NCBI GenBank assembly: GCA_026003395.1
Contig: BPHE01000014.1
Coordinates: 1-64,000 of the forward strand
Length of the DNA stretch: 64,000 nt
Direction of reading: 5' to 3'
Source: Vicingaceae bacterium
GTDB taxonomy: Bacteria; Bacteroidota; Bacteroidia; Flavobacteriales_E; Vicingaceae
Shown here: one piece after another, positions 1 through 17,505 of the stretch
How the letters are laid out: every line of letters starts with the position of its first letter
How positions within the stretch are numbered: position 1 is the first letter of the stretch
Notes under the pieces: generated by a model
What the model was told of the DNA's origin: nothing
Database searches by the model: none
Seen by the model: only the letters and a program-made list of their open reading frames with translations
Position numbers and translations under genes: made by a program

Positions 1-13
1 ATATTTAAAAATA

Positions 14-43
14 AAAAAGCGGGACCAATAGATCCCGCTTTTT
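14..43 (-). terminator. Rho-independent terminator of array gene A
   Basis: An 11-bp perfect stem (14-24 pairs with 33-43) with an 8-base loop is flanked by A and T runs. It lies just past the stop of the minus-strand gene ending at 65. The symmetric A/T flanks would let it work in both directions. It differs in sequence from the terminators of the other four array genes, so gene A has a unique 3' flank. Confidence 0.85.
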
Positions 44-64
44 ATTAATGTATGGGTATTAATC

Positions 65-2995
65 TTACTCTATAATCAACTTTTTGATAATGGCAGATTG
101 ATCATCTTGCAGTTTAAGGAAATAGATTCCTTTGGCCTGGTTGGTCAGGTCGACCGGCAAGACATCGCCGTTGTTGGCTTTAATCACTTGACGGAACACT
201 ACCTGTCCTTGTGTATTGAGTATTTCAAGCGTAGCATTGCTCCATACCCGGTTGAAACGTACGTTGATCAATCCATTGTTGGGATTGGGATAAACGGCAA
301 GTGTAGTGGCATCTGTTTCGTTGATGGCATTGGGTGATCCGGGTATAGTGTAAGTTACGGTGTCGCTTGTACACTGCCCATAAGCGATTAGCGTAACGGT
401 GTGGGTATCTCCTGATGCATAAACATGCGTAGGATTCATGTCGGTGGAAGTATTTCCATCGCCGAAGTCCCAGAAGTAGGAAGAAGCGTTGGTGGAGGTG
501 TTATTGAAGGTATAGATGAATTGCGAACCGGTGTAAGAGAAATCGGCAACAGGATCGGGTATATTGGTGATTTTGATATTGTCAAAACCTGTACCACAGG
601 CATTTGTGGCATTGAGGGTATAAGTACCCGGATTGACCACTTGAATAGTGGCAGTGGTATCACCTGTTGGCAACCAGGCAAAAGTTCCGTTAGGTTCGGG
701 GAATCCGATGGTTACGGTATCGCCGGGACATTTTTCGATATCAGGACCTAAGAAGTTGTTGGAAGCAGGGTTGGCAAACACATCGGCACCGATAAATGGG
801 TAGTTGGGATTGCGGGGATTTCCGTCGATATCGGTAGAGATGGCAGCAATGTGCATACCTGCTCCGGCAAGAGAATCCTGGCAAGAATGCAGGTCGAAAT
901 CGGAGTAGAATTTAGGATTGACAGACAAGGAATTGGCATCGAATCCTGTATTGATTTGCCATGCATAGAGAGAAGGATAAGCCGTACCGAGGTATCCGAA
1001 GTTGGAGGAGGCGGGGATGAAGTAGTTGTTGTAATCCATGTTATTGATGAAAGCACCGCTGATATAAATGGCATAACCTCCTGTCGTTTTTCTGGCTGCG
1101 ATGTTGTTGTTGTAGATATTAAAACCACCACCGCCGGTTAGGTATATGGGATAGGTAGTGCCCGTATTTGGGATACTAATGTTGTTATTATAGAGATTGA
1201 TGTAAGAGCAAGTAGAGGCATAGATGCCGTAACCTGTAGAAGAGTTGGTGCTGTCTCCGATGGCAATGAAGTTATTGGCAAAGAGTGCGGGATTGGAGGG
1301 GGTACCATTGGTCTGATACATGTAAAGTCCATAGACAAAACCGGATGGTTTGTTGAAAATAAACTTATTTTTTTGTACGGAAGAAATCTTATCAACGTAG
1401 TAAAAATAAGCCAGATAAATGGAGGATGAATAATTGATGGAAGCTGTTACATAGTTATTGTTGAACGATAATCCGTCTGCATAATATACATGAAGCGGTC
1501 TGTAGTATTGCATCATAAATTTGTTACCGTCAAAGACCGTATTTGTGTTTCTGTTGGTAGTGCTTTGACCATACCAATAAATTCCATAGCTACCTCCTTT
1601 GATGGTGTTGTTGAGGAATTTGATGTTGTTGGTAGGTGTTCCGGATCCTTTGTAAACAACCGTTTTATTGGTTGAAGTGGAAGTGTTGTTGGTATCGTTC
1701 ATTAAGATACAGTTTTTAATTGTAATATTATTTTCACCGCCGTTAAAGTTAAGAACAAAAGCATACGTAGAACCTGTATTGACGATTTGCAAGCTGTCGA
1801 TACGGTAATGAGAGGCACCTCCGTCAAACTTGATGACATAGTTGTCGGAAGTAGAGGCAGAAGCAAAGGTTAAGACAGAGTTGAGGTTTTTTCCTTTGAA
1901 TGTTACGGTGTTGGTGGCACTCATGCCTTGTACGGTAGTCAGAGTGATTTGTTCATTGAATGTAGAATCATGCACGATAAAAGTTACCGGACCGCAAACA
2001 CCGAAGTTATTCAAGGCATTGACGGCAGCGGTGAAACTTGGATAATTGGCAGTAGGTCCGCCAATGTAATAAGTGCCGGACAGGGAGGGGATTAAAGTAA
2101 TCATTGCCGTATCATTAGATGGAATTGAGTCATTTACACCGTTTGGATTTGAGGTATAAACTTTAAGTATATCACCATTGCTAAATGTATAATTACCAAT
2201 AACCACATTTGCAAGAGTTTGTAATGGTGCTATTGCACCGGACCAATTGTAGGGTGTTTGAGGCACTCCGTTTACTTCCCAATTGATTGTGCAATTAAAA
2301 AGAGTGTCAGTTCCTAAGTTTTCTAATGTTACTACAATATTTGAATTGCCAACTGAGCAAGTAGGCACATAAGGTGTGTCGATGGATGCAATTCCGGCAT
2401 CATTCGGATATGGACAAAGGGCAGTAATAATTACATCATCAATGTATATACCATCATAGTTGTTTGCAATTCCATCAATTGAGTTAAAATTAAATCTTAA
2501 TATTATATTTTGACCGGCAAATGATGATAGGTTATAGGTAACATTATGCCATCCACCAAATAATAATCCTCCCGGATTACTATTGGTACTAAAAATATTT
2601 GTGAAGGTAGACCCACCATTATTAGAAATTTGCACGGTTAATACATCATAGGTACAAGGAACTGTAAAGCATTCATTGTTAACATAGTAATTAAATGATA
2701 AAGTAGCTCCTGTAGATGGGATTGAAATTGATGGAGATACAAGATTACCAGAAACAGTTAAGCTACCATTACCAAATTCGCATCCTGAACCTTGAAATAA
2801 AGCACTTCCCGGTGCACTATGTCCGGAAGCACTACTTTGACTACAGGAAGTGGTAAAAATCCAATTACCATTTACACCATTTGCAGCTGTAAATTGCCCT
2901 AAACTTGAATTAAAAGTTTCTTGAAAGATTGGGCATTGGGCATAAATATTCAACAATAAAATGTTGAATGTGAAAAATAATAATAATTTTTTCAT
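65..2995 (-). CDS. Array gene A: secreted beta-helix/PKD protein with T9SS sorting domain (intact copy)
   Basis: A 976-residue secreted protein, the only intact member of the five-gene array. Visible order: signal peptide (about 1-19, ending YAQ), a MAM/jelly-roll-like head (about 20-195) ending near FDGIYIDDVIIT-like text, a CARDB-like segment starting NDAGIASIDTPYVP, a long Asn/Tyr-rich region of NNNI and YNNN repeats typical of a right-handed beta-helix (about 305-720), an Ig-like segment, a PKD domain with FWDFGDG, and a type A T9SS sorting domain (about 900-976, AVYPNPNNG to KKLIIE). By family knowledge it is exported by Sec, crosses the outer membrane through T9SS, and ends up on the surface or released. 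Adhesion or glycan binding is inference. A TAnnTTTG box lies upstream and a hairpin terminator downstream. Confidence 0.9.
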   Translation of the reverse strand: MKKLLLFFTFNILLLNIYAQCPIFQETFNSSLGQFTAANGVNGNWIFTTSCSQSSASGHSAPGSALFQGSGCEFGNGSLTVSGNLVSPSISIPSTGATLSFNYYVNNECFTVPCTYDVLTVQISNNGGSTFTNIFSTNSNPGGLLFGGWHNVTYNLSSFAGQNIILRFNFNSIDGIANNYDGIYIDDVIITALCPYPNDAGIASIDTPYVPTCSVGNSNIVVTLENLGTDTLFNCTINWEVNGVPQTPYNWSGAIAPLQTLANVVIGNYTFSNGDILKVYTSNPNGVNDSIPSNDTAMITLIPSLSGTYYIGGPTANYPSFTAAVNALNNFGVCGPVTFIVHDSTFNEQITLTTVQGMSATNTVTFKGKNLNSVLTFASASTSDNYVIKFDGGASHYRIDSLQIVNTGSTYAFVLNFNGGENNITIKNCILMNDTNNTSTSTNKTVVYKGSGTPTNNIKFLNNTIKGGSYGIYWYGQSTTNRNTNTVFDGNKFMMQYYRPLHVYYADGLSFNNNYVTASINYSSSIYLAYFYYVDKISSVQKNKFIFNKPSGFVYGLYMYQTNGTPSNPALFANNFIAIGDSTNSSTGYGIYASTCSYINLYNNNISIPNTGTTYPIYLTGGGGFNIYNNNIAARKTTGGYAIYISGAFINNMDYNNYFIPASSNFGYLGTAYPSLYAWQINTGFDANSLSVNPKFYSDFDLHSCQDSLAGAGMHIAAISTDIDGNPRNPNYPFIGADVFANPASNNFLGPDIEKCPGDTVTIGFPEPNGTFAWLPTGDTTATIQVVNPGTYTLNATNACGTGFDNIKITNIPDPVADFSYTGSQFIYTFNNTSTNASSYFWDFGDGNTSTDMNPTHVYASGDTHTVTLIAYGQCTSDTVTYTIPGSPNAINETDATTLAVYPNPNNGLINVRFNRVWSNATLEILNTQGQVVFRQVIKANNGDVLPVDLTNQAKGIYFLKLQDDQSAIIKKLIIE

Positions 2996-3019
2996 AGTTA
3001 GAGGTTTTTATTTGAGTAA

Positions 3020-3027
3020 CAAATATA
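3020..3027 (-). promoter_or_regulatory. -7 promoter box of array gene A
   Basis: Read on the minus strand this is TATATTTG, an exact match to the Bacteroidota -7 consensus TAnnTTTG, 25 bases before the ATG at 2995. I see no good TTTG at the usual -33 distance, only AT-rich sequence, so the call rests on the -7 box and its position. The same box is present before gene C. Confidence 0.55.
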
Positions 3028-3093
3028 TAAATTTTTATCAGATTTTAATATTAATTTTTTATCAAATTTTAAATTAACTTTAAACAACAAAAA

Positions 3094-3117
3094 AATAGCG
3101 GCTATGAAGCCGCTATT
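3094..3117 (-). terminator. Rho-independent terminator of array gene B
   Basis: A perfect 10-bp stem (AATAGCGGCT with AGCCGCTATT) has a four-base ATGA loop on the plus strand. On the minus strand the stem is followed by a T run, as expected for a gene ending at 3151. The matching terminators of C and E carry the loop in inverted orientation. Confidence 0.85.
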
Positions 3118-3150
3118 CTAAAGGTGTTTGGAGTATTTAAAAAATGTTAA

Positions 3151-5950
3151 TTACTCTATAATCAACTTTTTGATAATGGCAGATTGATCATCTTGCAGTT
3201 TAAGGAAATAGATTCCTTTGGCCTGGTTGGTCAGGTCGACCGGCAAGACATCGCCGTTGTTGGCTTTAATCACTTGACGGAACACTACCTGTCCTTGTGT
3301 ATTGAGTATTTCAAGCGTAGCATTGCTCCATACCCGGTTGAAACGTACGTTGATCAATCCATTGTTGGGATTGGGATAAACGGCAAGTGAAGCGGCATCT
3401 GTTTCGTTGATGGCATTGGGCGATCCGGGTATAGTGTAAGTTACGGTGTCGCTTGTACATTGCCCATAAGCGATTAGCGTAACGGTGTGGGTATCTCCTG
3501 ATGCATAAACATGCGTAGGATTCATGTCGGTGGAAGTATTTCCATCGCCGAAGTCCCAGAAGTAGGAAGAAGCGTTGGTGGAGGTGTTATTGAAGGTATA
3601 GATGAATTGCGAACCGGTGTAAGAGAAATCGGCAACAGGATCGGGTATATTGGTGATTTTGATATTGTCAAAACCTGTACCACAGGCATTTGTGGCATTG
3701 AGGGTATAAGTACCCGGATTGACCACTTGAATGGTGGCAGTGGTATCTCCTGTTGGCAACCAGGCAAAAGTTCCGTTAGGTTCGGGGAAGCCGATGGTTA
3801 CGGTATCGCCGGGACATTTTTCGATATCAGGACCTAAGAAGTTGTTGGAAGCAGGGTTGGCAAACACATCGGCACCGATAAATGGGTAGTTGGGATTGCG
3901 GGGATTTCCGTCGATATCGGTAGAGATGGCAGCAATGTGCATACCTGCTCCGGCAAGAGAATCCTGGCAAGAATGCAGGTCGAAATCGGAGTAGAATTTA
4001 GGATTGACAGACAAGGAATTGGCATCGAATCCTGTATTGATTTGCCATGCATAGAGAGAAGGATAAGCCGTACCGAAGTATCCGAAGTTGGAGGAGGCGG
4101 GGATGAAGTAGTTGTTGTAATCCATGTTATTGATGAAAGCACCGCTGATATAAATGGCATAACCTCCTGTCGTTTTTCTGGCTGCGATGTTGTTGTTGTA
4201 GATATTAAAACCACCACCGCCGGTTAGGTATATGGGATAGGTAGTGCCCGTATTGGGATACTAATGTTGTTATTGCATAGAGATTGATATAAGAGCAAGT
4301 AGAGGCATAGATGCCGTAACCTGTAGAAGAGTTGGTGCTGTCTCCGATGGCAATGAAGTTATTGGCAAAGAGTGCGGGATTGGAGGGGGTACCATTGGCC
4401 TGATACATGTAAAGTCCATAGACAAAACCGGATGGTTTGTTGAAAATAAACTTATTTTTTTGTACGGAAGAAATCTTATCAACGTAGTAAAAATAAGCCA
4501 GATAAATGGAGGATGAATAATTGATGGAAGCTGTTACATAGTTATTGTTGAACGATAATCCGTCTGCATAATATACATGAAGCGGTCTGTAATATTGCAT
4601 CATAAATTTGTTACCGTCAAAGACCGTATTTGTGTTTCTGTTGGTAGTGTCTTTGACCATACCAATAAATTCCATAGCTACCTCCTTTGATGGTGTTGTT
4701 GATGAAATTGATGTTGTTGCTAACAACGGAGTTCCGGAACCTTTGTAGACAACCGTTTTATTGGTAGATGTCGTAGAAGTGTTGTTTGTATCATTCATCA
4801 AGATACAGTTCTCAATGATGATATCATCTTCACCGCCGTTAAAGTTAAGAACAAAAGCATAAGTAGATCCTGTATTGACGATTTGCAAGCTGTCGATACG
4901 GTAATGAGAGGCACCTCCGTCAAACTTGATGACATAGTTGTCGGAAGTAGAGGCAGAAGCAAAGGTTAAGACAGAGTTGAGGTTTTTTCCTTTGAATGTT
5001 ACGGTGTTGGTGGCACTCATGCCTTGTACGGAGGTTAGAGTGATTTGTTCATTGAATGTAGAATCATGCACGATAAAAGTCACCGGACCGCAAACACCGA
5101 AGTTATTCAAAGCATTGACCGCATCATTAAAACTAGCATAATCTGCCATGGGTCCCCCAATGTAAAATGTTCCACTCAAAGAAGGGGAAATAATCGTATT
5201 TAAAGTATCATTTTGATTGATTGTGTCAGGAACGTTGTTGGGATTATATGTCCATATTTTTAAATTAATGGTTGTTGTTAAATTGATAGTACCTAAATTG
5301 ACTTGAGCTGTAGTTGGATTCGAACCTCCGTTTGTATCCAACAATATATAATAAGTTTGAGACGGTTGTGGTACTCCATTAATTTCCCATGCAATTGAAA
5401 ATGTATCCACTTGATTCATTCCAAAATTTCCAACAGTTACAACTACAGGCGTAGGACCCGGGCATGCCACAGATGGAGTGTCTAATGAAACGATACCAAT
5501 ATTGTTGTAACCTTGAACATAATTGTAAGTTAAAACCGGGGTAATACAAAAAGATGCGCCACCCGTACAAATATTATTTACTGAGGATGTTGCCGTATAA
5601 GTAAATGTAATGATTCCATCCATAGACCAACTATTGATAGAATCAACAGGAATTGTAAATGAGGTAAAGTCATTTCCGCATTGCATACCCTGGAGTGTTC
5701 CCAATACACCACCATTCTCAGTATAAATGGTAACGTATTCCGAAGATAAATCCAAATCGCCGGTAAAATATACGTCTAAGGTACCACTGTTTATTGCACC
5801 AAATTGTGCATTGTTATGATTCACAATCTCAGTACCTCCGGTTACTAAGTTACAAATTTGAGGTATGGAGTCATAATACACTCCTGCATGGGTTTCCCAT
5901 GATATCAACATAACGAAACCCGTGATTAATAAAGTAAAGATCTTTTTCAT
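3151..5950 (-). pseudogene. Array gene B: head type 2 fused to the shared beta-helix/PKD/T9SS module (frameshifted as given)
   Basis: Begins at 5950 with signal peptide MKKIFTLLITGFVMLISWETHA, then a head unlike gene A (GVYYDSIPQ onward, a CUB- or lectin-like beta domain by appearance), a CARDB-like segment, then the shared module. The first frame runs 5950-4205. Inside it a stretch near 4640-4735 is read out of frame (TTPSKEVAMEFIG replaces NTIKGGSYGIYWYG) and is then restored. The final break is near 4255-4280, where two extra bases and one missing base relative to gene A put the rest (Ig, PKD, sorting domain, 4125-3151) in another frame. Apart from these indels the codons are intact, which suggests either recent decay or consensus errors. 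Own promoter box and terminator are present. Confidence 0.75.
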
Positions 5951-5976
5951 AGCATTATTTTTTACATTTTATGAGA

Positions 5977-5984
5977 CAAAGATA
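5977..5984 (-). promoter_or_regulatory. -7 promoter box of array gene B
   Basis: Minus-strand TATCTTTG matches the Bacteroidota TAnnTTTG -7 box exactly, 27 bases before the ATG at 5950. The sequence around it is unrelated to the gene A promoter, so head type 2 carries its own promoter. The -33 element is not obvious. Confidence 0.55.
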
Positions 5985-6030
5985 ATGAATGTTTATGTAA
6001 AGTCCATTAAATACATATGGATGTAAAAAA

Positions 6031-6054
6031 AATAGCGGCTTCATAGCCGCTATT
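6031..6054 (-). terminator. Rho-independent terminator of array gene C
   Basis: The stem AATAGCGGCT / AGCCGCTATT has a TCAT loop, and an A run on the plus-strand left side becomes the T tail on the minus strand. The 24-base hairpin is the exact reverse complement of the one after gene B. Confidence 0.85.
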
Positions 6055-6087
6055 TTAAAGGTGTTTGGAGTATTTAAAAAATGTTAA

Positions 6088-9019
6088 TTACTCTATAATC
6101 AACTTTTTGATAATGGCAGATTGATCATCTTGCAGTTTAAGGAAATAGATTCCTTTGGCCTGGTTGGTCAGGTCGACCGGCAAGACATCGCCGTTGTTGG
6201 CTTTAATCACTTGACGGAACACTACCTGTCCTTGTGTATTGAGTATTTCAAGCGTAGCATTGCTCCATACCCGGTTGAAACGTACGTTGATCAATCCATT
6301 GTTGGGATTGGGATAAACGGCAAGTGTAGTGGCATCTGTTTCGTTGATGGCATTGGGTGATCCGGGTATAGTGTAAGTTACGGTGTCGCTTGTACACTGC
6401 CCATAAGCGATTAGTGTAACGGTGTGGGTATCTCCTGATGCATAAACATGCGTAGGATTCATGTCGGTGGAAGTATTTCCATCGCCGAAGTCCCAGAAGT
6501 AGGAAGAAGCGTTGGTGGATGTGTTATTGAAGGTAAAGATGAATTGTGAACCGGTGTATGTGAAATTGGCAACAGGATCGGGTATATTGGTGATTTTGAT
6601 ATTGTCAAAACCTGTACCACAGGCATTTGTGGCATTGAGGGTATAAGTACCCGGATTGACCACTTGAATGGTGGCAGTGGTATCACCTGTTGGCAACCAG
6701 GCAAAAGTTCCGTTAGGTTCGGGGAATCCGATGGTTACGGTATCGCCGGGACATTTTTCGATATCAGGACCTAAGAAGTTGTTGGAAGCAGGGTTGGCAA
6801 ACACATCGGCACCGATAAATGGGTAGTTGGGATTGCGGGGATTTCCGTCGATATCGGTAGAGATGGCAGCAATGTGCATACCTGCTCCGGCAAGAGAATC
6901 CTGGCAAGAATGCAGGTCGAAATCGGAGTAGAATTTAGGATTGACAGACAAGGAATTGGCATCGAATCCTGTATTGATTTGCCATGCATAGAGAGAAGGA
7001 TAAGCCGTACCGAGGTATCCGAAGTTGGAGGAGGCGGGGATGAAGTAGTTGTTGTAATCCATGTTATTGATGAAAGCACCGCTGATATAAATGGCATAAC
7101 CTCCTGTCGTTTTTCTGGCTGCGATGTTGTTGTTGTAGATATTAAAACCGCCACCGCCGGTTAGGTATATGGGATAGGTAGTGCCCGTATTTGGGATACT
7201 AATGTTGTTATTATAGAGATTGATGTAAGAGCAAGTTGAGGCATAGATGCCGTAACATGTAGAAGAGTTGGTGCTGTCTCCGATGGCAATGAAGTTATTG
7301 GCAAAGAGTGCGGGATTGGAGGGGGTACCATTGGTCTGATACATGTAAAGTCCATAGACAAAACCGGATGGTTTGTTGAAAATAAACTTATTTTTTTGTA
7401 CGGAAGAAATCTTATCAACGTAGTAAAAATAAGCCAGATAAATGGAGGATGAATAATTGATGGAAGCTGTTACATAGTTATTGTTGAACGATAATCCGTC
7501 TGCATAATATACATGAAGCGGTCTGTAGTATTGCATCATAAATTTGTTACCGTCAAAGACCGTATTTGTGTTTCTAGTTGGTAGTGCTTTGACCATACCA
7601 ATAAATTCCATAGCTACCTCCTTTGATGGTGTTGTTGAGGAATTTGATGTTGTTGGTAGGTGTTCCGGATCCTTTGTAAACAACCGTTTTATTGGTTGAA
7701 GTGGAAGTGTTGTTGGTATCGTTCATTAAGATACAGTTTTTGATGTAATATTATTTTCACCGCCGTTAAAGTGTAAGAACATAAGCATAAGTAGATCCTG
7801 TATTGACGATTTGCAAGCTGTCGATACGGTAATGAGAGGCACCTCCGTCAAACTTGATGACATAGTTGTCGGAAGTAGAGGCAGAAGCAAAGGTTAAGAC
7901 AGAGTTGAGGTTTTTTCCTTTGAATGTTACGGTGTTGGTGGCACTCATGCCTTGTACGGTAGTCAGAGTGATTTGTTCATTGAATGTAGAATCATGCACG
8001 ATAAAAGTTACCGGACCGCAAACACCGAAGTTATTCAAGGCATTGACCGCAGCGGTGAAACTTGGATAATTGGCAGTAGGTCCGCCAATGTAATAAGTGC
8101 CGGACAGGGAGGGGATTAAAGTAATCATTGCCGTATCATTAGATGGAATTGAGTCATTTACACCGTTTGGATTTGAGGTATAAACTTTAAGTATATCACC
8201 ATTGCTAAATGTATAATTACCAATAACCACATTTGCAAGAGTTTGTAATGGTGCTATTGCACCGGACCAATTGTAGGGTGTTTGAGGCACTCCGTTTACT
8301 TCCCAATTGATTGTGCAATTAAAAAGAGTGTCAGTTCCTAAGTTTTCTAATGTTACTACAATATTTGAATTGCCAACTGAGCAAGTAGGCACATAAGGTG
8401 TGTCGATGGATGCAATTCCGGCATCATTCGGATATGGACAAAGGGCAGTAATAATTACATCATCAATGTATATACCATCATAGTTGTTTGCAATTCCATC
8501 AATTGAGTTAAAATTAAATCTTAATATTATATTTTGACCGGCAAATGATGATAGGTTATAGGTAACATTATGCCATCCACCAAATAATAATCCTCCCGGA
8601 TTACTATTGGTACTAAAAATATTTGTGAAGGTAGACCCACCATTATTAGAAATTTGCACGGTTAATACATCATAGGTACAAGGAACTGTAAAGCATTCAT
8701 TGTTAACATAGTAATTAAATGATAAAGTAGCTCCTGTAGATGGGATTGAAATTGATGGAGATACAAGATTACCAGAAACAGTTAAGCTACCATTACCAAA
8801 TTCGCATCCTGAACCTTGAAATAAAGCACTTCCCGGTGCACTATGTCCGGAAGCACTACTTTGACTACAGGAAGTGGTAAAAATCCAATTACCATTTACA
8901 CCATTTGCAGCTGTAAATTGCCCTAAACTTGAATTAAAAGTTTCTTGAAAGATTGGGCATTGGGCATAAATATTCAACAATAAAATGTTGAATGTGAAAA
9001 ATAATAATAATTTTTTCAT
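6088..9019 (-). pseudogene. Array gene C: head type 1 copy of gene A (frameshifted as given)
   Basis: The start, signal peptide and head (9019 to about 8110) match gene A with no difference that I noticed by eye. The first frame runs 9019-7766 and stops after GSTYAYVLTL. An extra base near 7770 is followed by a missing base near 7742 and another extra base near 7575. The remaining module (beta-helix from RNTNTVFDGNKF onward, Ig, PKD, sorting domain) is open from about 7575 to 6088. All three indels sit where the paralogues differ by single bases, so a consensus artefact is a real alternative to pseudogene status. PKD residues differ slightly from gene A (VANFTYTGSQFIFTF). Confidence 0.75.
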
Positions 9020-9043
9020 AGTTAGAGGTTTTTATTTGAGTAA

Positions 9044-9051
9044 CAAATATA
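9044..9051 (-). promoter_or_regulatory. -7 promoter box of array gene C
   Basis: Minus-strand TATATTTG in the same position and context as the box before gene A, consistent with duplication of the whole head and promoter. Confidence 0.55.
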
Positions 9052-9117
9052 TAAATTTTTATCAGATTTTAATATTAATTTTTTATCAAATTTTAAATTA
9101 ACTTTAAACAACAAAAA

Positions 9118-9141
9118 AATAGCGGCTATGAAGCCGCTATT
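9118..9141 (-). terminator. Rho-independent terminator of array gene D
   Basis: Same hairpin and loop orientation (ATGA on the plus strand) as after gene B, with an A run on its left giving a T tail on the minus strand. Confidence 0.85.
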
Positions 9142-9174
9142 CTAAAGGTGTTTGGAGTATTTAAAAAATGTTAA

Positions 9175-11970
9175 TTACTCTATAATCAACTTTTTGATAA
9201 TGGCAGATTGATCATCTTGCAGTTTAAGGAAATAGATTCCTTTGGCCTGGTTGGTCAGGTCGACCGGCAAGACATCGCCGTTGTTGGCTTTAATCACTTG
9301 ACGGAACACTACCTGTCCTTGTGTATTGAGTATTTCAAGCGTAGCATTGCTCCATACCCGGTTGAAACGTAAGTTGATCAATCCATTGTTGGGATTGGGG
9401 TAAACGGCAAGTGAAGCGGCATCTGTTTCGTTGATGGCATTGGGCGATCCGGGTATAGTGTAAGTTACGGTGTCGCTTGTACATTGCCCATAAGCGATTA
9501 GCGTAACGGTGTGGGTATCTCCTGATGCATAAACATGCGTAGGATTCATGTCGGTGGAAGTATTTCCATCGCCGAAGTCCCAGAAGTAGGAAGAAGCGTT
9601 GGTGGAGGTGTTATTGAAGGTATAGATGAATTGCGAACCGGTGTAAGAGAAATCGGCAACAGGATCGGGTATATTGGTGATTTTGATATTGTCAAAACCT
9701 GTACCACAGGCATTTGTGGCATTGAGGGTATAAGTACCCGGATTGACCACTTGAATAGTGGCAGTGGTATCTCCTGTTGGCAACCAGGCAAAAGTTCCGT
9801 TAGGTTCGGGGAAGCCGATGGTTACGGTATCGCCGGGACATTTTTCGATATCAGGACCTAAGAAGTTGTTGGAAGCAGGGTTGGCAAACACATCGGCACC
9901 GATAAATGGGTAGTTGGGATTGCGGGGATTTCCGTCGATATCGGTAGAGATGGCAGCAATGTGCATACCTGCTCCGGCAAGAGAATCCTGGCAAGAATGC
10001 AGGTCGAAATCGGAGTAGAATTTAGGATTGACAGACAAGGAATTGGCATCGAATCCTGTATTGATTTGCCATGCATAGAGAGAAGGATAAGCCGTACCGA
10101 AGTATCCGAAGTTGGAGGAGGCGGGGATGAAGTAGTTGTTGTAATCCATGTTATTGATGAAAGCACCGCTGATATAAATGGCATAACCTCCTGTCGTTTT
10201 TCTGGCTGCGATGTTGTTGTTGTAGATATTAAAACCACCACCGCCGGTTAGGTATATGGGATAGGTAGTGCCCGTATTGGGATACTAATGTTGTTATTGA
10301 TAGAGATTGATATAAGAGCAAGTAGAGGCATAGATGCCGTAACCTGTAGAAGAGTTGGTGCTGTCTCCGATGGCAATGAAGTTATTGGCAAAGAGTGCGG
10401 GATTGGAGGGGGTACCATTGGCCTGATACATGTAAAGTCCATAGACAAAACCGGATGGTTTGTTGAAAATAAACTTATTTTTTTGTACGGAAGAAATCTT
10501 ATCAACGTAGTAAAAATAAGCCAGATAAATGGAGGATGAATAATTGATGGAAGCTGTTACATAGTTATTGTTGAACGATAATCCGTCTGCATAGTATACA
10601 TGAAGCGGTCTGTAATATTGCATCATAAATTTGTTACCGTCAAAGACCGTATTTGTGTTTCTGTTGGTAGTGTCTTTGACCATACCAATAAATTCCATAG
10701 CTACCTCCTTTGATGGTGTTGTTGAGGAATTTGATGTTGTTGGTCACGGAGTTCCGGAACCTTTGTAAACAACCGTTTTATTGGTTGAAGTCGGAAGTGT
10801 TGTTGGTATCATTCATCAAGATACAGTTCTCAATGATGATATCATCTTCACCGCCGTTAAAGTGTAAGAACAAAAGCATAAGTAGATCCTGTATTGACGA
10901 TTTGCAAGCTGTCGATACGGTAATGAGAGGCACCTCCGTCAAACTTGATGACATAGTTGTCGGAAGTAGAGGCAGAAGCAAAGGTTAAGACAGAGTTGAG
11001 GTTTTTTCCTTTGAATGTTACGGTGTTGGTGGCACTCATGCCTTGTACGGTAGGTCAGAGTGATTTGTTCATTGAATGTAGAATCATGCACGATAAAAGT
11101 CACCGGACCGCAAACACCGAAGTTATTCAAAGCATTGACCGCATCATTAAAACTAGCATAATCTGCCATGGGTCCCCCAATGTAAAATGTTCCACTCAAA
11201 GAAGGGGAAATAATCGTATTTAAAGTATCATTTTGATTGATTGTGTCAGGAACGTTGTTGGGATTATATGTCCATATTTTTAAATTAATGGTTGTTGTTA
11301 AATTGATAGTACCTAAATTGACTTGAGCTGTAGTTGGATTCGAACCTCCGTTTGTATCCAACAATATATAATAAGTTTGAGACGGTTGTGGTACTCCATT
11401 TATTTCCCATGCAATTGAAAATGTATCCACTTGATTCATTCCAAAATTTCCAACAGTTACAACTACAGGCGTAGGACCCGGGCATGCCACAGATGGAGTG
11501 TCTAATGAAACGATACCAATATTGTTGTAACCTTGAACATAATTGTAAGTTAATACCGGGGTAATACAAAAAGATGCGCCACCCGTACAAATATTATTTA
11601 CTGAGGATGTTGCCGTATAAGTAAATGTAATGATTCCATCCATAGACCAACTATTGATAGAATCAACAGGAATTGTAAATGAGGTAAAGTCATTTCCGCA
11701 TTGCATACCCTGGAGTGTTCCCAATACACCACCATTCTCAGTATAAATGGTAACGTATTCCGTAGATAAATCCAAATCGCCGGTAAAATATACGTCTAAG
11801 GTACCACTGTTTATTGCACCAAATTGTGCATTGTTATGATTCACAATCTCAGTACCTCCGGTTACTAAGTTACAAATTTGAGGTATGGAGTCATAATACA
11901 CTCCTGCATGGGTTTCCCATGATATCAACATAACGAAACCCGTGATTAATAAAGTAAAGATCTTTTTCAT
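9175..11970 (-). pseudogene. Array gene D: head type 2 copy of gene B (frameshifted as given)
   Basis: The head from 11970 is almost identical to gene B; I saw about three substitutions in roughly 800 bases. The first frame ends in nonsense after FNEQITLT because of an extra base near 11053. Further indels occur near 10863, 10790, 10745, 10680, 10300 and 10278. The shared module is then open in pieces (11039-10857, 10698-10294, 10149-9175). This is the most broken copy, yet each piece keeps good coding sequence up to the exact indel. Own promoter box and terminator are present. Confidence 0.75.
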
Positions 11971-11996
11971 AGCATTATTTTTTACATTTTATGAGA

Positions 11997-12004
11997 CAAA
12001 GATA
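11997..12004 (-). promoter_or_regulatory. -7 promoter box of array gene D
   Basis: Minus-strand TATCTTTG, identical in sequence and position to the box before gene B. Confidence 0.55.
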
Positions 12005-12050
12005 ATGAATGTTTATGTAAAGTCCATTAAATACATATGGATGTAAAAAA

Positions 12051-12074
12051 AATAGCGGCTTCATAGCCGCTATT
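12051..12074 (-). terminator. Rho-independent terminator of array gene E
   Basis: Same 10-bp stem as the other array terminators, with the TCAT loop orientation shared with gene C. An A run on the plus-strand left side gives a T tail on the minus strand. Confidence 0.85.
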
Positions 12075-12107
12075 TTAAAGGTGTTTGGAGTATTTAAAAA
12101 ATGTTAA

Positions 12108-14961
12108 TTACTCTATAATCAACTTTTTGATAATGGCAGATTGATCATCTTGCAGTTTAAGGAAATAGATTCCTTTGGCCTGGTTGGTCAGGTCGACCGG
12201 CAAGACATCGCCGTTGTTGGCTTTAATCACTTGACGGAACACTACCTGTCCTTGTGTATTGAGTATTTCAAGCGTAGCATTGCTCCATACCCGGTTGAAA
12301 CGTACGTTGATCAATCCATTGTTGGGATTGGGATAAACGGCAAGTGTAGTGGCATCTGTTTCGTTGATGGCATTGGGTGATCCGGGTATAGTGTAAGTTA
12401 CGGTGTCGCTTGTACACTGCCCATAAGCGATTAGTGTAACGGTGTGGGTATCTCCTGATGCATAAACATGCGTAGGATTCATGTCGGTGGAAGTATTTCC
12501 ATCGCCGAAGTCCCAGAAGTAGGAAGAAGCGTTGGTGGATGTGTTATTGAAGGTAAAGATGAATTGTGAACCGGTGTATGTGAAATTGGCAACAGGATCG
12601 GGTATATTGGTGATTTTGATATTGTCAAAACCTGTACCACAGGCATTTGTGGCATTGAGGGTATAAGTACCCGGATTGACCACTTGAATGGTGGCAGTGG
12701 TATCACCTGTTGGCAACCAGGCAAAAGTTCCGTTAGGTTCGGGGAATCCGATGGTTACGGTATCGCCGGGACATTTTTCGATATCAGGACCTAAGAAGTT
12801 GTTGGAAGCAGGGTTGGCAAACACATCGGCACCGATAAATGGGTAGTTGGGATTGCGGGGATTTCCGTCGATATCGGTAGAGATGGCAGCAATGTGCATA
12901 CCTGCTCCGGCAAGAGAATCCTGGCAAGAATGCAGGTCGAAATCGGAGTAGAATTTAGGATTGACAGACAAGGAATTGGCATCGAATCCTGTATTGATTT
13001 GCCATGCATAGAGAGAAGGATAAGCCGTACCGAGGTATCCGAAGTTGGAGGAGGCGGGGATGAAGTAGTTGTTGTAATCCATGTTATTGATGAAAGCACC
13101 GCTGATATAAATGGCATAACCTCCTGTCGTTTTTCTGGCTGCGATGTTGTTGTTGTAGATATTAAAACCACCACCGCCGGTTAGGTATATGGGATAGGTA
13201 GTGCCCGTATTTGGGATACTAATGTTGTTATTGATAGAGATTGATGTAAGAGCAAGTAGAGGCATAGATGCCGTAACATGTAGAAGAGTTGGTGCTGTCT
13301 CCGATGGCAATGAAGTTATTGGCAAAGAGTGCGGGATTGGAGGGTGTACCATTGGCCTGATACATGTAAAGTCCATAGACAAAACCGGATGGTTTGTTGA
13401 AAATAAACTTATTTTTTTGTACGGAAGAAATCTTATCAACGTAGTAAAAATAAGCCAGATAAATGGAGGATGAATAATTGATGGAAGCTGTTACATAGTT
13501 ATTGTTGAACGATAATCCGTCTGCATAGTATACATGAAGCGGTCTGTAATATTGCATCATAAATTTGTTACCGTCAAAGACCGTATTTGTGTTTCTGATT
13601 GGTAGTGCTTTGACCATACCAATAAATTCCATAGCTACCTCCTTTGATGGTGTTGTTGAGGAATTTGATGTTGTTGGTAGGTGTTCCGGATCCTTTGTAA
13701 ACAACCGTTTTATTGGTTGAAGTGGAAGTGTTGTTGGTATCATTCATCAAGATACAGTTCTCGATGATGATATCATCTTCACCGCCGTTAAAGTGTAAAA
13801 CATAAGCATAAGTAGATCCTGTATTGACGATTTGCAGGCTGTCGATACGGTAATGAGATGCACCTCCGTCAAACTTGATGACATAGTTGTCGGAAGTAGA
13901 GGCAGAAGCAAAGGTTAAGACAGAGTTGAGGTTTTTTCCTTTGAATGTTACGGTGTTGGTGGCACTCATGCCTTGTACGGTAGTCAGAGTGATTTGTTCA
14001 TTGAATGTAGAATCATGCACGATAAAAGTTACCGGACCGCAAACACCGAAGTTATTCAATGCATTGACCGCAGCGGTGAAACTTGGATAATTGGCAGTAG
14101 GTCCGCCAATATAATAAGTTCCGGATAGGGAGGGATTGATAGCTTTCACAACCGTATCGTTCATGGGCATGGAATCATTCACACCATTGGGTAATGAGGT
14201 ATACACTTTTAAAATATCGCCTGCCGAAAAATTATAGTTCCCGATCAGGACATTTGACAGGGTTTGATAGGGAGGGATAACGCCTGTCCAGCTGTAAGGT
14301 GTTTGAGCCACACCGTTGACCATCCAGTTGACAGTGCAGTTAAACAAGGTGTCGGTACCCATATTTTGCAGGGTAATCACCACATTGGATTGTCCTACTG
14401 TGCAAGACGGCACATAAGGAGTGTCGATGGAAGCCACCCCGGCATCGTTGGCATAGGGAGGGAGCACCACAATGTCATAATCTTCAGCTTCTCCCCATGT
14501 GATGGAATTGCATGGATCAGATGGTACGCCGGCATATTGACATCTAACCCTCATACGGTATGTTCCTCCTGTAGCATTGGCCGGAGCCGTAATAGAACCT
14601 GTAAAAGGGGAAGTGGAGGATGTTCCTGAGTTCCATACATCCTCTCCGGGGTCGTTGAAATCAAAGTCATTGTTCCAATCCACCCAAATCCTGAATCCTT
14701 GTGAATATGCAGATCCTGCTTGTACGGTAAAGTTGAAGGACCCCATGTAATTGATGGTCACTTTGGTTGCCGTGTGATAACTATAATTACCGGAGCTACA
14801 GCCGGAATTCAAATTGCTGATATTGGTGATACCTCCGGTGGTAGAAAAATTTTCAATTTGGTCACCCAACTACAACCGGTTGAATATTGAGGAGTGCAAT
14901 ATTGCCCGTAACCGGAATACAGGGCAAATCCTCCCAGTAAAGATAGTAGAATTTTTTTCAT
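12108..14961 (-). pseudogene. Array gene E: GEVED-like head fused to the shared beta-helix/PKD/T9SS module (frameshifted as given)
   Basis: The ATG at 14961 gives a signal peptide (MKKILLSLLGGFALYSGYGQ) followed by YCTPQYSTGCSW. The frame then breaks at a CCC run (14865-14867), and the next frame continues GDQIENFSTTGGITNISN, the usual text of GEVED-type secreted proteins. One base appears to be missing there. The head continues with FRIWVDWNNDFDFNDPGEDVW and a CARDB-like segment (NDAGVASIDTPYVPSC) and joins the shared module near 14125. Two more indels near 13600 and 13232 split the beta-helix. The C-terminal part (13225-12108) with PKD and T9SS sorting domain is intact. This is the only copy with head type 3. 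Confidence 0.75.
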
Positions 14962-15185: not shown

Positions 15186-15632
15186 ATGAGCATCAAGTTG
15201 TACGAAGGATCACGGCTGGAGATATACAGTGCAATGACGGATACGGTCCTGGAACGTCCTTTTGTGGGAGGAGGAATAAGTGCCGGATTTCCTTCTCCGG
15301 CAATGGATTTTGAATTTGACGCTATTGATTTAAACAGGTTTTTGGTAAAGCATCCTGCTGCCACTTTTTACGGAAGAGTAAAAGGAAACTCCCTTAAGAA
15401 TGCAGGGATTGATGATGGCGACATCCTGGTGATCGACCGGAGTATGGAGCCCTCCCATGGCAAAATAGCTGTTTGCTATATTAATGGAGAATTCACGGCC
15501 AAACGCATCCATATCAGCAAAGGTGAAGTGTGGTTGATGCCCGAAAATGAAGATTATGAACCCATCAAGGTGGAAGAAGGCAATGAGTTGATTATTTGGG
15601 GAGTGGTTACGTATGTGATTAAAGCAGTGTAA
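15186..15632 (+). CDS. umuD: UmuD-like LexA/S24-family peptidase, translesion polymerase V subunit
   Basis: 148 residues, the usual UmuD length. It has the self-cleavage junction Ala33-Gly34 ([11 protein letters not shown]), the nucleophile Ser69 in [10 protein letters not shown] and the catalytic Lys106 in FTAKRIH. In the known system RecA-stimulated cleavage gives UmuD', which binds UmuC to form DNA polymerase V for damage tolerance. It lacks a DNA-binding N-terminus, so it is not LexA itself. The umuC gene starts 7 bases downstream and a YedK-type gene follows, making a three-gene damage operon. Regulation by the SOS system is inferred from the family. Confidence 0.93.
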
Positions 15633-15639
15633 GCGAGGT

Positions 15640-16896
15640 ATGTTTGCATTGATCGATTGTAATAATTTTTATGCTTCATGTGAGAGGGTGTTCAGGCCCG
15701 ATCTTCTTGGCAAACCGGTGGTGGTACTTTCCAACAATGATGGATGTGTGATAGCCAGAAGCAACGAAGCAAAAGCATTGGGCATCCCGATGGGGGCGCC
15801 GGCTTTTGAGTATGAAGAGATTTTTGAGCAACACAAAGTGCATGTTTTCTCGGCCAATTTTCCGTTATACGGAGACATGAGCCGCAGGGTGATGAGTATC
15901 ATAGCGGACATGTCGCCCGGAGTGGAGATATACAGCATAGACGAGGCCTTTGTCGACCTTCGGGGAGTGGACAGAGAGCAACTGAAATCATGGGGAAGGT
16001 CCTTACGCGAAAAAGTGTTGAAATGGACAGGAATACCGGTAAGCATAGGCATTGCTCCTTCAAAAGCTTTGGCAAAAGTGGCCAACAGAGTAGCAAAAAA
16101 GTTTCCGGACCAAACCGCTAATTGTCATGTAATAGACAGCGATTATCTAAGAGAAAAAGCTTTAAGGTGGTTATCTATTGAAGATGTGTGGGGAATAGGT
16201 CGCCGATATACGCGTAAGTTGCAAGCCATGGGAATAAAAACAGCTTTCGATTTTTGCCGCTTGCCCGAAGCTTGGGTAAAGAAGCACATGACCATTCAAG
16301 GGTGGAGGTTGCAGCAGGAGCTCAAAGGCCATCCTGTTTTGGATTTAGAAGTATCCATACCAAAGAAATCGATTGCCACCACGCGGTCGTTTGACCGGCA
16401 TTATGAGAACTTTGACGATCTGCGTGAACGTATAGTGACGTTTGCCGCATCGTGTGCCGAAAAATTGCGCCGGCAAAACTCTCTGTGCAGCGTGCTCATT
16501 GTGTTTATTCATACCAACGGTTTTCGGAAAGATTTGCCTCAATACAGCCGGAATGTGTTGCTGCAATTGCCTTATCCTACCGACTCTACCTTGGTGATTG
16601 CGCGTTTTGCCGAAGAAGGTTTAAAACGTATCTATAAGCCGGGATTTGCTTATAAAAAAGCAGGCGTGATATTGACCGATTTTGTCAATCATGCTTCTGT
16701 GCAGCTTAATTTGTTTGAAACGCCGGATATGCGCCATGGACGTTTGATGAAAGCTATTGACAACATCAACAGCCGCTGGGGAATGATGAAGATTCGTCTG
16801 GCTGCACAGGATGCCAAAACATGGAAAATGAAGCAGGCATTGCTTTCTCCTCAATATACCACACGCTTGAGCGATATATTGGTTATTAAAGCATAA
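15640..16896 (+). CDS. umuC: UmuC, Y-family DNA polymerase V catalytic subunit
   Basis: 418 residues, typical of UmuC. The Y-family palm motifs are intact: Asp6 in [16 protein letters not shown] and the Asp101-Glu102 pair in [10 protein letters not shown]. The helix-hairpin-helix region ([16 protein letters not shown]) and a little-finger domain with a C-terminal UmuC extension follow. It copies past damaged bases with low fidelity when bound to UmuD'. It lies 7 bases after umuD and 6 bases before the SRAP gene, so the three are almost certainly co-transcribed. Confidence 0.95.
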
Positions 16897-16902
16897 AAAA
16901 AT

Positions 16903-17505
16903 ATGTGTTTTTATACATCACAAAGCAAAACAGCTCTGCAATTGGAACAGCGTTTTCATGCCATTTTTGAAGATGTACAAAGGTATACACCGGGCCTATA
17001 TGTGGCATTTGCTTATCCTGAGACCCCCGTGATTCGTCATCATACACCGGATAAAATAGAAATGCTCCATTGGGGACTTATTCCGCCATGGGCTAAAAAT
17101 ACAGACATACGCAAATATACGCTAAATGCCAAAATCGAAACTATCGAACAAAAACCATCGTTCAAACCGGTAGTAAAAAATCGGTGTTTGGTATTGGTGG
17201 ACAGTTTCTACGAATGGAAATGGCTTGATCCCAAAGGGAAGCAAAAACAAAAGTACCGGATAGCATTGCCGGAAAATGAACCTTTTGCATTGGGGGGATT
17301 GTGGAGCGAATGGATCGACAAACAAACAGGCGAATTGTGGAAAACATACACCATATTGACTACTGATGCCAACGATATGATGGCTGAAATACATAACAGC
17401 AAAAAAAGAATGCCGATAGTTTTGCACCCGGATTATGAGCAAGAATGGTTGAAGGGTGGAGACCCGGTTATGCAGGATGACCGCTTGGTGGCTTTTCCGG
17501 AGTGA
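16903..17505 (+). CDS. SRAP-domain abasic-site shielding protein (YedK/HMCES family)
   Basis: 200 residues beginning Met-Cys, so Cys2 becomes N-terminal after methionine removal, as the family requires to form a thiazolidine crosslink with an abasic site in single-stranded DNA. Other active-site positions are present: Asn75 in TLNAKIET, Glu104 in DSFYEWKW and His164 in AEIHNSKKRMP. These fit E. coli YedK Cys2, Asn75, Glu105 and His160. Placement directly behind umuDC suggests protection of abasic sites and error-prone bypass are switched on together. The Arg of the usual NAR-ET motif is Lys here. Confidence 0.92.
   Translation: MCFYTSQSKTALQLEQRFHAIFEDVQRYTPGLYVAFAYPETPVIRHHTPDKIEMLHWGLIPPWAKNTDIRKYTLNAKIETIEQKPSFKPVVKNRCLVLVDSFYEWKWLDPKGKQKQKYRIALPENEPFALGGLWSEWIDKQTGELWKTYTILTTDANDMMAEIHNSKKRMPIVLHPDYEQEWLKGGDPVMQDDRLVAFPE

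Follow-up and report, generated by a model that had tools for sequence, protein, structure and literature searches.

The first 15 kb of the window, a stretch of 64,000 nucleotides from a Vicingaceae bacterium, carry what are probably tandem paralogues encoding T9SS cargo that have undergone concerted evolution without programmed switching. Five direct copies, designated A to E, lie head-to-tail on the minus strand between position 65 and about 14,960, spaced 2933-3087 bases apart and transcribed in the order E, D, C, B, A (Table 1). They have a segment of about 2 kb in common, 96-98% identical in DNA, as the initial annotation had noted, and from A to E their heads follow the order MAM, unknown, MAM, unknown, GEVED (1-2-1-2-3). 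The same annotation had counted five tandem genes. Five direct copies are indeed present, but A alone is an intact frame, copies B to E being interrupted by small indels, and the extra A-B pair may be an assembly construct. The array occupies the very start of contig C14 (69,107 bases; the genome comprises 2.54 Mb in 33 contigs), the contig end lying 64 bases beyond it, and its copy number and order are weakly supported, coming from one contig end in a metagenome-like assembly. A 24-base unit, present in 2.5 repeats, was also seen upstream of both head-1 genes (3022-3081 and 9046-9105).

Table 1. Coordinates of the array and neighboring features in the window
Feature	Position	Strand	Description
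Gene A	65..2995	-	Head 1 (MAM-like), CARDB-like domain, predicted beta-helix, PKD, T9SS type A sorting domain; sole intact frame, 976 aa
Gene B	3151..5950	-	Head 2 (no Pfam match), CARDB-like domain, shared tail; frameshifted in the assembly
Gene C	6088..9019	-	Head 1, equal to that of A; from about 7257 its 3' part and 3' flank are identical or nearly identical to E; frameshifted in the assembly
Gene D	9175..11970	-	Head 2; frameshifted in the assembly
Gene E	12108..14961	-	Signal peptide, GEVED head 3, CARDB-like domain, shared tail; frameshifted, including immediately ahead of GEVED; transcribed first
Shared tail in A	65..2094	-	Predicted beta-helix, PKD, T9SS CTD; junction at 2027-2094 depending on the pair compared
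Shared tail in B	3151..5123	-	
Shared tail in C	6088..8118	-	
Shared tail in D	9175..11143	-	
Shared tail in E	12108..14139	-	
Switch interval in C	7257..7335	.	Change from A-like to E-like affinity; either a putative crossover behind the 6.02-kb pair duplication or a join made in assembly
3' flank of A	1..64	-	Hairpin terminator unlike those of the other copies; contig start
umuD-like, umuC (IMS) and SRAP genes	15186..17505	+	SOS-type, divergent from the array; context

Three kinds of head were distinguished. The head of A is identical to that of C (0 differences in 1053 nt), those of B and D differ by 3 substitutions in 893 nt, and that of E differs from both pairs. A Pfam search identified an InhA-like MAM domain in head 1 and GEVED (PF20009; 75 bits, cut-off 24.4) in gene E, while head 2, searched as gene B, gave no Pfam match and a predicted fold with a pLDDT of 37. 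The heads had been described as unrelated. The MAM-like and GEVED types were confirmed, but the heads are not wholly unrelated, as a CARDB-like domain following the N-terminal domain is common to all three in diverged form (71% DNA identity for A/E and 54% for A/B). A signal peptide (MKK and a hydrophobic stretch) was read by eye in A, B, C and the start of E, in which the NR2 domain upstream of GEVED is absent and GEVED follows almost directly.

The shared tail contains PKD and Por_Secre_tail domains, the latter detected in A at 5.6e-14 and scoring 52.6 bits (cut-off 27), with 47.1 bits (cut-off 23) for TIGR04183; the C-terminal sorting domain is present in all five copies. Between head and PKD the proteins are predicted to form a beta-helix body, to judge from the match of Beta_helix PF13229 to the corresponding body of relatives in genome G003 and from regular short strands at 305-655 in the model of A, which is weak at full length (pLDDT 45). 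The same low-confidence fold, useful for the CTD and CARDB parts only, matches CARDB structures, and its C-terminus matches the CTDs of NucA and RemA as bound in the T9 translocon; by sequence, too, the CTD matches chain 8glk_D, the NucA substrate. A search of the genome for a T9SS component recovered SprA (SprA_N, 562.8 bits, 3.9e-169), and about 55-60 Por_Secre_tail domains are encoded genome-wide. Because of the sorting domain, the CTD matches, SprA and these further domains, export of the predicted array proteins by the T9SS, which had been proposed for the common module from the outset, is well supported. The heads might differ in the ligands they bind or in their adhesive role, with body and export signal kept in common; binding is suggested by domain family.

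The near-identity of the tails extends to silent sites. Silent-site divergence (pS) between A and E is 0.76 before the junction and falls to 0.08, 0.04, 0.01 and 0.03 in successive tail segments; between A and B it is 0.71 before the junction and then 0.10, 0.03, 0.02 and 0.02. Comparison of silent sites before and after the junction (Fisher p of about 1e-45 for A/E and 1e-38 for A/B) excludes chance as the cause of the change in identity. The tails also show almost no amino-acid changes between copies. Selection was considered as the cause of near-identity and rejected, since purifying selection on protein cannot produce near-identical silent sites; their homogenisation points instead to recombination as what made the tails alike. 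Identity between A and E sets in at around alignment column 1144 (A 2094, E 14139) and between A and B at around column 1211 (A 2027, B 5123), about 67 bases later, close to the sharp stops originally placed at about 2085, 5110 and 14125 in A, B and E. This variation between pairs rules out site-specific exchange at the junction, as a fixed site does not fit breakpoints that differ by pair, whereas conversion tracts do. The tails thus appear to have been homogenised by homologous recombination between neighbors, either copied or exchanged, and the gene conversion suggested earlier, or else unequal crossover, of the common tail is supported by the silent sites, the varying breakpoints and the mosaic structure of C. 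Since the three genes share the diverged CARDB-like domain, they look like old paralogues with homogenised 3' halves.

The alternating order of the heads could be traced to a single event. Up to column 1976, C has the allele of A at 11 sites and that of E at 2; beyond this column it has the allele of E at 11 sites and that of A at none (p=3e-5 for the switch); likewise, the 3' flank of C equals that of E, and the flank of D equals that of B. The 1-2-1-2 order is the footprint either of a single tandem duplication of 6.02 kb, its crossover lying within C, or of a loop of identical topology made in assembly. The alternation reported initially is therefore real in the assembly, but one duplicated pair (A+B and C+D) explains it, rather than five independent assortments, and the assembled order would reduce to an ancestral array of three genes with heads 3-2-1. 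Each of these genes would have been expressed from its own promoter, and its product secreted or displayed at the surface, with a signal peptide, head, CARDB-like domain, beta-helix, PKD and T9SS type A sorting domain. Homologous recombination between neighbors would copy or exchange the beta-helix, PKD and CTD while the heads stay diverged, and unequal exchange between the tails of the head-3 and head-1 genes would have duplicated the pair in between. Most frameshifts in B to E would be consensus errors, and programmed switching would not be needed.

Relatives within the family are consistent with slower exchange between heads and bodies. A scan of a collection of genome contigs for the same array returned distant relatives only, mainly through PKD/CTD matches, and among 46 genomes of the family close full-length relatives were rare, being single genes in G011 and G020 and a GEVED-headed pair in G009. 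Identity is 97% within the array, against a protein identity of 41-44% to the single-copy relatives, a comparison across genera in which recent duplication would give the same pattern. Relatives of head 1 in G011 and G020 are borne on Ig_7 proteins and those of head 2 in G003 and G016 on proteins of about 2000 aa; heads and bodies or tails thus recombine over longer evolutionary time. Tandem CARDB/beta-helix T9SS cargo genes are common (G003, G042, G009, G019, G010 and G005), with copies at 64-83% DNA identity. In G009, contigs break inside the repeat of the GEVED-headed pair, whose copies alternate between identical and diverged stretches as a mosaic. Tandem T9SS cargo genes of 2000 aa in G003 and G042 (loci L153 and L155) have their last 90 codons homogenised (pS 0.23 and 0.04 vs 0.59 and 0.45), and the other tandem pairs tested in the family had no homogenised 3' end, so that homogenised 3' ends are recurrent in the family but not general. 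Conserved synteny with window gene g12 was considered and discarded: LptG and the cassette gene lie about 24 kb apart on one contig in G011 and G020, but in an order unlike that of the window. An internal direct repeat of 92-93% identity was also observed elsewhere in the genome under study, in a third tandem gene that has PKD-like sequence and stands beside two T9SS cargo genes (L172, contig C2, 7380-8065).

The three-gene core is common ground with an account that denies only the duplication, namely that the real locus has three genes (3-2-1), that the assembler rounded the shared repeat once too often, and that reads of other copies introduced the frameshifts during polishing. Every array junction fits a three-gene path with one loop, E-D being the same as C-B and D-C the same as B-A, and the array stands at a contig start. 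The tail indels all fall in columns 1303-2083, mostly at sites where the copies differ, with none in columns 2100-3187 of any of the five copies, and several odd alleles in B to E are hybrids of two copies' alleles: C reads GTTCTTACACTTT, combining the alleles of A and E, and D reads CCGTGACCAAC, combining those of B and A. E is also broken in frame between its signal peptide and GEVED. Elsewhere in the assembly, the ends of contigs C5 (1-2044; L173) and C28 (1-2042; L174) overlap for 2 kb in inverted orientation at 99.4%, with 8 substitutions and 4 indels making up 12 differences, and a T9SS-tailed gene there is split into two frames; this overlap gauges the consensus error and places the difference between B and D (about 0.6%) within assembly noise. 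Against this, the tail of A is distinct and is followed by a terminator of its own, which means that the contig does not merely stop within the repeat, and the substitutions between B and D reach into the heads. An assembly loop is accordingly a serious contender, if one falling somewhat short of an even chance. On either account, the hybrid alleles, the indels at sites of copy difference and the errors at the C5/C28 overlap make it likelier that the frameshifts in B to E are mainly consensus errors. The genome was presumably sequenced by nanopore, and nanopore assemblies are known for indels of this type (PMC9262707); the other 49 kb of the window carry continuous genes. A further explanation is that one gene was recently duplicated and that its copies, all with the same tail, acquired foreign heads by fusion, near-identity then reflecting youth. 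The occurrence of the heads on other bodies in related genera would agree with such capture, as would an orthologous cargo gene (L108 in G020, L109 in G011) with a 220-aa Ig/GEVED segment in G020 only and otherwise conserved surroundings. Identity nevertheless stops after the CARDB-like domain, of which each of the three genes has a diverged version, as expected of old paralogues converted in the 3' part only, and the breakpoints vary by pair, making recent head capture unlikely.

The initial annotation had further envisaged a cassette-shuffling locus for surface variation, a reading that found no support. Each copy from A to E has its own TAnnTTTG-type promoter-like box and hairpin terminator, which speaks against an antigenic-variation cassette, where a single expression site would be accompanied by silent copies lacking promoters. 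No recombinase was found among the 20 neighboring genes scanned, and no invertible segment was detected, the long inverted repeats being terminators only and all copies having the same orientation; an invertible shufflon was dismissed on these grounds. The terminators after B and D and those after C and E were observed to be the same hairpin with the loop flipped (TCAT vs ATGA), as if the hairpin were inverted (3066-3117, 6031-6082, 9090-9141 and 12051-12102). Nor were further head cassettes found in the genome: queries with head 1, head 2 and the tail recovered only the array and one head-1 relative at 46%, and thus no spare store of heads 1 or 2. It could still be argued that intact A is the expressed gene and that B to E are silent, broken donors of heads or tail segments, given that A alone is intact and that the tails recombine. 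Yet the head of A equals that of C, so no new head has been installed; B to E retain promoter boxes and terminators; the tails are nearly free of amino-acid changes; and the frameshifts look like consensus errors. Together with the results for head stores, inverted repeats and recombinases, this renders a switching locus very improbable. More improbable still is a T9SS surface-protein archive in which the frameshifts are real, A is the sole expressed gene, and B to E are donors with their shared tails as recombination arms.

Concerted evolution of tandem cargo genes, the preferred reading, is a known kind of gene-family evolution. In Porphyromonas gingivalis, rgpA, kgp and hagA likewise encode T9SS-exported proteins with differing N-terminal parts and near-identical repeated segments plus CTD; their repeats carry adhesin segments, domain rearrangement and gene conversion have been discussed for them, and their assemblies are broken by the repeats (PMC5266723). 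Unlike these, the array genes are in tandem, their heads are not proteases, and in place of cleaved adhesin domains they have a predicted beta-helix/PKD body in common. A second counterpart is provided by the babA/babB and homA/homB genes of Helicobacter pylori, in which intragenomic conversion maintains the concerted evolution of a 3' segment and other segments diverge (PMC2795765). Like the array, these genes encode paralogous surface proteins with a homogenised 3' segment and a diverged remainder, although the bab and hom products are outer-membrane proteins rather than T9SS cargo, and strain comparisons are documented for them. Gene E, with an N-terminal GEVED on a stalk, resembles the CshA_NR2/GEVED fibrillar adhesins, in which a GEVED close to the N-terminus is joined to a variety of stalks and domain shuffling has produced mosaic architectures (PMC10952558), but gene E leaves no room for NR2 between signal peptide and GEVED, and its anchor is the T9SS CTD. 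The tandem genes of the family share the architecture and placement of the array and, in G003 and G042, the homogenised 3' end; compared with their 64-83%, the 2 kb at 96-98% is the extreme.

Repeats of this type can distort assemblies, in that false frameshifts and uncertain copy number mimic pseudogenes or a switching locus. The array itself offers a clean example, from an uncultured member of the Bacteroidota, of a T9SS cargo family in which the export and stalk part is homogenised while the exposed part diverges, a pattern that appears in milder form in G003 and G042.
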